Shown here: positions 53,185-55,653 of the stretch, one piece after another | How the letters are laid out: each line of letters begins with the position of its first letter | How positions within the stretch are numbered: position 1 is the first letter of the stretch | Source of the DNA: Deltaproteobacteria bacterium | GTDB lineage: Bacteria; Desulfobacterota; Desulfobulbia; Desulfobulbales; Desulfurivibrionaceae | DNA: 64,000 bases | Reading direction: 5' to 3' | Assembly: GCA_021847425.1 (NCBI GenBank) | Contig: JAJZRF010000007.1 | Location: 1 to 64,000, forward strand | Position numbers and translations under genes: made by a program | Notes under the pieces: model-generated | Databases searched by the model: none | What the model saw: only the letters and a program-made list of their open reading frames with translations | What the model was told of the DNA's origin: nothing

Positions 53185-53216
53185 TCGAGGGGGACGTTGC
53201 TTGCTAACTTGCTATT
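53185..53216 (+). repeat. REP copy 1
   Basis: TCGAGGGGGACGTTGCTTGCTAACTTGCTATT. Confidence 0.88.
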
Positions 53217-53263
53217 TTTACCTATGACCATCTTCCCCCAGTCAAGATCAACCCCCATCAGGC

Positions 53264-53536
53264 TCAATGCTTCAGGTCGCGGTAAAAATTTTCGTGTGGC
53301 CCAAGCGCCAGCAATACACGCTTGGTTTCATCCCACTGGTAGGCCAGCAGGTACTGTTGGTTGACGCAGTCGAATTTGTATACGAAGATGCCAAGGAGAT
53401 CACCTTTCTTCTCTTCGCCTAGTTTAGGATCGGCAACTACCGTGCGGATTACCGAGTGTACGGCTTCGCGCTGATTGTGATGTAGTTTCCTGTAGCCCCG
53501 TTTAAAGGCGGGCTTTTGCTCAAGCCGCACACTCAT
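53264..53536 (-). CDS. RelE-type toxin
   Basis: 'RGYRKLHHNQREAVHSVIRTVVADPKLGEEKKGDLLGIFVYKFDCVNQQYLLAYQWDE'. Confidence 0.8.
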   Translation of the reverse strand: MSVRLEQKPAFKRGYRKLHHNQREAVHSVIRTVVADPKLGEEKKGDLLGIFVYKFDCVNQQYLLAYQWDETKRVLLALGPHENFYRDLKH

Positions 53537-53745
53537 TATTCAGGTAGCTCGAAAGGCTCTGAATCTTCGTCCTTTGCTAATAGCGTGTCGCGTACGAACT
53601 CGATAGGCAAGTCTGGGTTGTCCAGCGCAGCACGGCCGATTTTTGCCCAGTAGCTCACCTGTTGTGGAACCGAACGCATCTCGGCTCTGGCGCGCGTCTT
53701 CGCGGTTTCATAAAGTGCATCATCGATCCGGATGGAAATGCTCAT
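53536..53745 (-). CDS. RHH (ParD-like) antitoxin
   Basis: 'MSISIRIDDALYETAKTRARAEMRSVPQQVSYWAKIGRAALDNPDLP'; 1 bp overlap with toxin. Confidence 0.85.
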   Translation of the reverse strand: MSISIRIDDALYETAKTRARAEMRSVPQQVSYWAKIGRAALDNPDLPIEFVRDTLLAKDEDSEPFELPE

Positions 53746-53841
53746 CGTCTTTCTCCTGTTGCAGATTGCCACAAATGTAGCATGCAGTATAGCAGTTGCC
53801 TAGTTTAATATGCAAGAACAATAATGCAGTAAGTTTAAGGA

Positions 53842-53873
53842 TCGAGGGTGACGTTGCTTGCTAACTAGCTATT
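53842..53873 (+). repeat. REP copy 2
   Basis: TCGAGGGTGACGTTGCTTGCTAACTAGCTATT. Confidence 0.88.
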
Positions 53874-54048
53874 TTCTTGTTTGCAAGCTCAGGGCTGGAT
53901 GTATTTTTCGTTTCCACGCGCCACATGCGAACAGAGTGTGGATGCGGCAATATTGAAAAGCAGATATTCAAGGATGCAGTATTGATTTTCTATGTATTCA
54001 GATGTATTCTAAAAAAATACAAATAAATTTTTCATACAGGAGGCATCA

Positions 54049-54288
54049 ATGAAAATGACGACTGTCAGAGTGGATGACCATCTTCTTGACCGGGTTGATG
54101 GAATAGCGAAATCACAGAGCCGCCCAAGATCATGGATAATCAATCAGGCCCTGGAGCGTTTCGTGGATTATGAAGAATGGTTTGAACTGGAAGTGAAAGC
54201 TGGGCTTACCGAGGTAGAACGAGGCGATGTCGCTCTTGATACAGAAGTAAGAAGCGCTTTCAATAAATGGGGCGTCGATGCAGGTTAA
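54049..54288 (+). CDS. CopG/RHH antitoxin
   Basis: 'MKMTTVRVDDHLLDRVDGIAKSQSRPRSWIINQALERFVDYEEW'. Confidence 0.88.
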   Translation: MKMTTVRVDDHLLDRVDGIAKSQSRPRSWIINQALERFVDYEEWFELEVKAGLTEVERGDVALDTEVRSAFNKWGVDAG

Positions 54289-54562
54289 GTGGACCAGGAA
54301 GGCCCTGATCAATCTCGATGATGCGGTTGAGTATATTGCCGGAGACAACCCGATTGCTGCCAGGAAGGTGGCCCAGCGAGTTTGGGATAGCTCTCAGTTG
54401 TTGGCTTTGCAGCCGTGCGCTGGTCGCCCCGGCAGAGTTCAAGGAACAAGAGAGCTTATAATCTCCAATCTTCCCTACATCCTGCCGTATATCCAGAAAG
54501 GGAACACCATCTATATCCTCCGGGTCATGCATACCTCCATGATATGGCCGGATAAATTTTAA
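54278..54562 (+). CDS. ParE/RelE-family toxin
   Basis: 'VKWTRKALINLDDAVEYIAGDNPIAARKVAQRVWDSSQLLALQPCAGRPGRVQGTRELIISNLPYILPYIQKGNTIYILRVMH'. Confidence 0.93.
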   Translation: MQVKWTRKALINLDDAVEYIAGDNPIAARKVAQRVWDSSQLLALQPCAGRPGRVQGTRELIISNLPYILPYIQKGNTIYILRVMHTSMIWPDKF

Positions 54563-54572
54563 TAATGTGCGG

Positions 54573-54604
54573 TCGCGGGGGACGTTGCTTGCTAATTAGC
54601 TATT
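54573..54604 (+). repeat. REP copy 3 (left end of RAYT unit)
   Basis: TCGCGGGGGACGTTGCTTGCTAATTAGCTATT. Confidence 0.88.
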
Positions 54605-54637
54605 GCCATACTCACAAGCTCGTGCTAACTTCGGCTT

Positions 54638-55636
54638 ATGCCACGCCAACCACGCCTTGACATACCCTACGTCCTGCATCACGTTATTGTTCGCGGCATC
54701 GAAAGACGCGATATTTTCGCTGATGACGCTGACAAGGAACGTTTCGTTTCCCGCCTTTCAGCTCTTCTGACAAAAGGTTCCACGAAGTGCTTTGCCTGGT
54801 CGCTGATGTCGAATCATTTCCACCTGTTGCTCATGCCGACCACGGTTTCTCTTTCAGAAACCATGCGCTGCCTGCTCACAGGGTATGCCGTCTATTTCAA
54901 TCGCAAATATCAGCGCTCCGGACACCTTTTTCAGAACCGATACAAGTCAATTCTCTGCGAGGAAGAGCCATACTTTCTCGAACTGGTTCGCTATATTCAT
55001 CTGAATCCGTTGCGAGCCGGTCTGGTGGCGAATTTGGATGGTCTTGATCACTACCAATGGAGCGGCCATGCAGCTCTGCTTGGCAATCGGACAGTGGAGG
55101 GACAAGAGAGAGACGAAGTGCTGGCGCGTTTTGGCAAGAGCAAGGCCCGTGCCTTGCGCGGGTATCGGCAGTTCGTTGCTGACGGGATTGCCGCAGGCCG
55201 TCGAGAAGATTTGATTGGCGGCGGACTTAAGCGAAGTCAATTCGGTTGCGGGGAGAACAGGGAGCTTGCTGCATACGACGAGCGGATCCTTGGCAGCGGC
55301 GGGTTTGTTGAAACGCTGATCCGTGGCGGCAACATACGGGAGCAGAAGAAATCACCACTGTCCCTTGCCGATCTTCTCCAAAATGTTTGCGGGATAACAG
55401 GCGTGGATGCTGTGATGATACGACGACCCGGCAAGGAAAGGACAGCTGCCAGGGCAAGGGCTATCTTCTGTTGTCTTGCCGTGCGTGAATACGGGTATAC
55501 TGGGAAAGAAGCCGGCGTGGCGACAGGACTCGGATCATCCGGTGTTTCCATCGCAGTGCAACGAGGCGAGAAGTTGATTAAAAGAGATCCATCACTGAGA
55601 GAAATGATTATGGGGATGGGGACGATAGCAAGATAG
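54638..55636 (+). mobile_element. REP-associated tyrosine transposase (RAYT, Y1_Tnp / TnpA_REP)
   Basis: 'MPRQPRLDIPYVLHHVIVRGIERRDIFADDADKERFVSRL...WSLMSNHFHLLLMP...MRCLLTGYAVYFNRKYQRSGHLFQNRYKSILCEEEPYFLELVRYIHLNPLRAGLV'. Confidence 0.95.
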
Positions 55637-55653
55637 CAAGCAACGTCCCCTCG
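55618..55653 (-). repeat. REP copy 4, inverted, overlapping the RAYT stop codon
   Basis: CGATAGCAAGATAGCAAGCAACGTCCCCTCG is the reverse complement of the REP motif; GGGGACG...CGTCCCC can form a stem. Confidence 0.88.

Follow-up and report, generated by a model that had tools for sequence, protein, structure and literature searches.

How do two toxin-antitoxin (TA) gene pairs come to lie between copies of one short repeat next to a transposase gene, and could the transposase have brought them there? The question is raised by a locus in a 64,000-nt stretch of DNA from a Deltaproteobacteria bacterium of the Desulfurivibrionaceae (assembly GCA_021847425.1, contig JAJZRF010000007.1; we call the whole stretch the window). 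Here an island flanked by a pilin gene on the left and a histidine kinase gene on the right has the order TIR1-TA1-TIR2-TA2-TIR3-RAYT-inverted TIR4, where TIR stands for terminal inverted repeat and RAYT for REP-associated tyrosine transposase. TA1, on the reverse strand, pairs a ParE-like_toxin (53264..53536, PF15781, Pfam 1.8e-34) with a ParD_like RHH antitoxin (53536..53745, PF11903, Pfam 1.5e-18). TA2, on the forward strand, pairs a CopG/RHH_1 antitoxin (54049..54288, PF01402, Pfam 1.9e-6) with a ParE_toxin (54278..54562, PF05016, Pfam 1.4e-15) whose stop codon lies about 15 bp ahead of TIR copy 3. The RAYT gene follows on the same strand (54638..55636, Y1_Tnp, PF01797, Pfam 7.2e-12). Open reading frames and Pfam matches thus bear out the placement of both pairs and the RAYT between the repeats in a preliminary description of this DNA. 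In each pair a toxin gene of a known family neighbours an antitoxin gene of a known family (PF15781 with PF11903, PF05016 with PF01402), and both are probably type II TA modules of the ParDE superfamily. None of the five island proteins matched a PADLOC defence-system label.

The repeats themselves were also described correctly, as three direct copies and an inverted one over the RAYT stop codon. A 32-mer recurs in direct orientation at 53185, 53842 and 54573 with 0, 2 and 3 mismatches (expected in 100 shuffles: 0), and 53190-53215 pairs with 55625-55650 over 26 nt at 96%, covering the stop codon (55636). The outer left copy, TIR copy 1, occupies 53189..53216 (+) and reads GGGGGACGTTGCTTGCTAACTTGCTATT; copy 2, placed by repeat search and pairwise alignment, occupies 53846..53873 (+). 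Copy 3 (54577..54604, +) and the inverted copy 4 (55625..55650, -, overlapping the stop codon) form the left and right ends of the RAYT element. Alignment confirms the similarity that the earlier account saw beyond the motif core: copy 1 matches copy 2 at 88% across 49 nt, and the right flank of copy 2 (about 53874-53895) carries a trace of the 5' leader of RAYT genes of the same group, matched as well by 4 of 500 shuffles. The right flank of copy 1 shows no such resemblance (466 of 500 shuffles as good). The leader trace suggests that TIR2 probably began as the left end of a RAYT element.

A genome-wide search found that the motif is not scattered. Allowing up to two mismatches, its 18-nt core occurs at 6 sites in the whole 2.7-Mb draft genome, namely the window's four and an inverted pair on contig C98. 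When one mismatch is allowed, 8 of 261 genomes of the class contain it, 7 of the 8 belonging to the window's genus. Judged by this distribution, the repeat is element-specific rather than a scattered REP. The C98 pair (L038:6182-6251; G000:C98:26180-26251), of the same subtype as the window's TIRs, is a MITE-like inverted pair of 72 bp with a Fic-family gene on one side and a long CRISPR-like array on the other, and a similar pair is found in G014:C59.

The label 'REP', which the preliminary description gave to these repeats, proved inapt. When 96 distinct TIRs were folded, no hairpin or palindrome rose above the shuffled background (mean z +0.1), and because the TIRs fold no better than shuffles we dropped the REP reading. 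Their head is GGGGACG, not a palindromic REP with a GTAG/GTGG foot as in REPtrons. Across the phylum, an inverted TIR pair flanks 103 of 136 RAYT loci, the left TIR mostly some 50-65 bp ahead of the start codon and its inverted partner at the stop codon. Almost all of these TIRs have GGGGACG as their head, and the tail differs by element, consisting of two 8-bp direct repeats that give a period of 8 (lag-8 z 12.5 vs shuffles; example CTTGCTAA-CTTGCTAT).

Such repeats have been described before. Di Nocera et al., 2013 (PMC3733652) introduced TIRtrons, whose transposases (TIRYTs) are associated with terminal inverted repeats; in the parts of that paper available to us, the consensus GGGGWSAS is given for some TIRYTs and not as a strict definition. 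The head of the window's TIRs, GGGGACGT, departs from this consensus in its last two letters. As GGGGWSAS held only for some published TIRs, the departure is compatible with TIRYT membership and marks a variant. Quentin et al., 2018 (PMC6006769), as far as available to us, equate subclass 2.1 of TnpA-Y1 with Bertels group 1, regard it as the probable counterpart of the TIRYTs in Di Nocera et al. (PMC3733652), and report that REPs were not found beside it.

The window transposase is such a subclass 2.1 or TIRYT HUH enzyme, with a C-terminal part resembling DnaA domain IV, and not the REPtron-type RAYT that had been supposed. In a predicted structure (mean pLDDT 83), Foldseek matched the first half to E. 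coli TnpA_REP (4er8, the best PDB match) and to IS608/ISDra2, and the second half to DnaA domain IV bound to DnaA boxes (3pvp and 1j1v, TMt 0.75-0.78). A sequence profile of the C-terminus likewise found the DnaA domain IV structures 1j1v (E 1.4e-4) and 2hcb in the PDB. The protein carries NHFH at residues 59-62, Y119 within YIHLNP, and the DnaA-domain-IV-like part at about residues 240-320; N59, H60, H62 and Y119-P124 are invariant across 14 aligned sequences, F61 being the varying hydrophobic position. The NCBIfam model for REP-associated tyrosine transposases, NF047646, scores it at 62 bits against a cut-off of 80. Compared with its counterpart in a relative, G006, the gene has a dN of 0.053 and a dS of 0.389 and so is under purifying selection. 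Plasmid carriage was considered and dropped, as a search of 72,556 plasmids at E 1e-30 returned 0 relatives of the RAYT.

With TIRtrons as described in the sources available to us, the window shares NHFH, YIHLNP, a length of about 330 aa, the C-terminal DnaA-like HTH, TIRs starting with GGGG and low copy number. It differs in the head, GGGGACG(T) instead of the published GGGGWSAS. In those published descriptions we also found neither of two further features of TIRs of the window type, namely that they bound TA and other cassettes and that they contain a pair of 8-bp direct repeats. REPtrons (the E. coli-type TnpA_REP/RAYT with REP/REPIN) have in common with the window the Y1 HUH fold (4er8), repeats beside the gene, and solitary and paired copies elsewhere, whereas the window repeats are non-palindromic, without GTAG and few in the genome, and its RAYT has an extra C-terminal domain. 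The Y1 HUH transposase fold also links the window to IS200/IS605 elements (IS608, ISDra2); unlike these, the window element ends in inverted repeats rather than subterminal hairpins, has a long tail domain, and shows no tnpB beside its RAYT.

How the TA pairs came to be arranged in this way can be approached by comparing the same site in relatives, whose genomes are all draft assemblies, mostly in many contigs. In G006, the interval between pilin and kinase genes holds TIR-TA1-TIR-RAYT-inverted TIR, the RAYT being 90% identical in amino acids; it has exactly one TIR and TA2 fewer than the window genome, G000. G010 has a TIR, a truncated RAYT remnant and an inverted TIR, without TA genes, and G004, G007, G011 and G015 have no island between the two genes. 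Relatives thus offer a single TIR in place of TIR-TA2-TIR, the kind of state that the preliminary description had asked about, as well as empty sites. A single origin of the island was considered and set aside, as the island-bearing species do not form one clade in a mostly unresolved kinase tree, and we claim no order of gain and loss. The otherwise empty locus of G015 has a diverged solitary TIR (5 mismatches in 25) between its pilin and ABC genes (L101:3473-3497, G015:C13). In another family of the same order, a different RAYT lies where an ABC ATPase gene is truncated (L063, G038:C36) and adjoins a pilin gene resembling those at the window locus, so that insertions may favour the pilin-ABC site.

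TA1 has spread separately from its neighbours and more recently. Between G000 and G006, both TA1 genes have a dS of 0.07, whereas dS is 0.39 in the RAYT, 0.58 in the kinase, 0.78 in the pilin, and 0.56 and 1.07 in the two ABC genes; dN/dS against G006 is 0.029/0.070 for the toxin and 0.025/0.066 for the antitoxin. A block of about 95% identity starts at TIR copy 1 and fades around TIR copy 2. By these dS values and the limits of the block, the TA1 unit was exchanged after the neighbouring RAYT copies had diverged. One could instead suppose that the outermost TIR and the inverted TIR served as ends and that the whole island, TA genes included, moved as one, in the manner of a composite transposon. 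In keeping with this, the outer edges of the G006 island are breakpoints on both sides: to the right of the inverted TIR, identity to the sister species G015 is 97.5%, to the left of the island about 80%, and the outer TIR is abutted by a stray kinase-gene start from another lineage. Genes are also interrupted by RAYT elements (an RHS gene each in L119 and L221, an AbiEii gene in L192). However, the unequal ages of TA1 and RAYT in G000 and G006 imply that the last move was not a joint one, and the outer-edge junctions differ among G000, G006 and G010, so that we regard movement of the island as a whole as quite improbable. The duplicated kinase start in G006 had been considered as a target-site duplication; we dropped this because comparison with G015 traces the left copy to another lineage.

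TIRs do not accompany TA1 everywhere. That relatives might carry the same TA pairs without repeats, a concern attached to the original proposal, holds in part: G012 has a TA1 homologue without TIRs, the one case seen, but at another site and not at the same position. TIRs are therefore not the only vehicle of TA1. Near the TA2 relatives in G050 and G047, no GGGGACG was seen.

TIR edges also form sharp synteny breakpoints elsewhere in the genus. At the hisFH locus, conservation of G006 with G015 and G002 starts at the 5' edge of a TIR. Identity between G006 and G015 is 92% beginning at the TIR, whereas leftward the two are unrelated for 2.4 kb (G006) and 4.8 kb (G015), and the G015/G002 side holds MazF and HigBA-type genes. 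Similarly, a TIR-HigBA unit of 725 bp is 92% identical between G010 and G015, its left limit falling at the TIR, with only about 270 bp of the G015 contig to the left of the TIR.

The layout recurs with other cargo. We searched the RAYT loci of the phylum for extra TIR copies only, without reference to TA genes, and obtained 27 intervals of 0.3-3 kb; the reversed TIR sequence, used as a control, gave 0 matches in 892 kb. It weighs against the cassette idea that no gene-sized cassette was present at 76 of the 88 RAYT loci with scorable upstream DNA. Cargo includes HipB-HipA in L112, where the HipA gene ends 6 bp before the next TIR; VapBC (VapB with PIN, or PIN) in L122 and L204; and AAA_14-DUF4143 in L040, a locus of the window's own genome with a different TIR subtype. 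Two loci hold longer series: AAA / AAA-DUF4143 / HEPN-MNT (HepT-NTP_transf) / RAYT / VapBC (PIN) in L155, and PemK/MazF / RHH / RelE+HTH / RAYT / YoeB-YefM in L202. The remaining intervals contain truncated RAYTs (L105, L193), RHS host genes (L119, L221) or genes of other kinds. Packing is tight, with only 6-15 bp separating the end of several cassette genes from the following TIR, and extra upstream TIRs are direct in 22 cases and inverted in 4 (14 vs 3 loci). Discrete cassettes, repeatedly of TA type, are thus found between RAYT repeats in several lineages, as had been anticipated. The proposal that the repeats delimit RAYT-linked cassettes stands insofar as they belong to the RAYT, are unscattered and repeatedly bound TA modules; it fails in having called them REPs and the enzyme a REPtron-type RAYT.

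Other features of these loci may be recorded here. AAA_14-DUF4143 ATPases, recurrent as TIR-delimited cargo (L155, L040), also occur in RAYT flanks without extra TIRs. Where RAYT copies stand in tandem (L105:138-1729 and L193:5493-8276), the upstream copy breaks off where the following TIR begins or shortly ahead of it; in L105 the truncated copy is identical at 513 of 519 positions. Direct duplications immediately flank the RAYT element in L192 (G517:C31; about 760 bp of AbiEii-gene DNA, 99.6-99.7%) and L221 (G295:C4; about 256 bp of RHS-gene DNA, 100%), possibly as long, variable target duplications or as assembly effects. The RAYT element in L196 (G591:C7) lies between direct repeats of 107 bp (94%), which stand 8 and 41 bp away from its TIRs.

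TA genes are about 3 times commoner in TIR-delimited intervals than in ordinary RAYT flanks. Pfam-supported TA genes make up 14 of 27 short cargo ORFs, the G006 orthologue being excluded from the count. RAYT flanks lacking extra TIRs served as controls; of 78 short ORFs taken from them, 12, at most 16, are TA-like as judged from family lists (p about 0.0003-0.003). Counted per locus, TA genes are present in 8 of 12 vs at most 16 of 76 (p 0.003), or in 6 of 10 (p 0.016) when two weak loci are left out, L192 with its RAYT inside an AbiEii gene and L197 with a poor TIR match. These p values are indicative only, as ORFs within a locus are not independent and 16/76, which derives from the number of ORFs, is a maximum. 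Because the control flanks are rather TA-rich themselves (about 15-20% of short ORFs), part of the association between TIRs and TA genes is background.

This background could mean that the RAYT neither selects nor moves TA genes. RAYTs may insert repeatedly and decay in dispensable, TA-rich DNA, leaving TIRs behind, with host recombination between direct TIRs deleting or swapping what lies between them. Decayed RAYT copies, which this history explains well, are indeed common (the G010 remnant, the tandem truncated copy in L105, and L193), the leader trace at TIR copy 2 and the TIR-less TA1 in G012 fit such a history, and direct repeats of about 25-47 bp are usable by host recombination. Yet random insertion does not predict the 22:4 bias of upstream TIRs toward direct orientation, nor the gap of 6-15 bp to which several cassette genes approach the following TIR, nor a TA1 unit much younger than the adjacent RAYT, with its left limit at the TIR edge and non-homologous outer flanks. 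We take this neutral explanation seriously and lean against it only mildly.

The reading we prefer, which we consider about equally likely to be right or wrong, is that the island is a modular one of a TIR-associated HUH transposase, in which TIR-delimited TA cassettes were added beside a core element by the action of the enzyme. The core would be TIR-RAYT-inverted TIR, and the cassettes would have joined on the outer (5') side of its left TIR, one TIR per cassette. The DnaA-like domain may read the two 8-bp repeats of the TIR and the HUH domain may nick at the GGGGACG edge; insertion, excision or tandem duplication at the nick would then add or remove TIR-cargo units. TA genes would accumulate, being small and self-selecting as well as difficult to lose. 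Movement of the cassettes by the RAYT itself is our inference from the sequence comparisons above; the further suggestion of the preliminary description, that the TA pairs might stabilise the island, is conjecture. The recurrence of the same layout in unrelated relatives suggests that this RAYT family helps to collect small survival genes.

It is tempting to speculate further that subclass 2.1 HUH transposases run a cassette system, in which single-stranded [TIR-cargo] units, with mainly TA and AAA-DUF4143 genes as cargo, would be excised and inserted at the GGGGACG edge of other TIRs. This would amount to an integron-like array run by an unrelated enzyme class, and we think it doubtful. Chromosomal integrons carry TA-rich cassette arrays with attC folded sites and a tyrosine-recombinase-type integrase. 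The likeness, which we offer as a resemblance only, would lie in small TA-type cassettes with a single short site repeated directly between them and a recombination gene alongside, whereas TIR arrays are short and no attC-like folded site was found in them. Among the ORFs read there was no integron-type tyrosine integrase.

TIRtrons are already known, and TA cassettes between their TIRs appear to be new: a search of the open-access literature, with subscription journals outside its scope, found no report of such cassettes or of the 8-bp TIR repeats. In the sources available to us, group 1 or subclass 2.1 RAYTs are widespread, have no known function, and are described as lacking REPs and without IS features. 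If enzyme-driven addition of cassettes is correct, subclass 2.1 would gain a role, with a substrate that recurs and can be tested, the TIR and its two 8-bp repeats, and with TA and related modules as a payload that recurs likewise, and TA genes would have a route by which to spread between chromosomes without plasmids or integrons.
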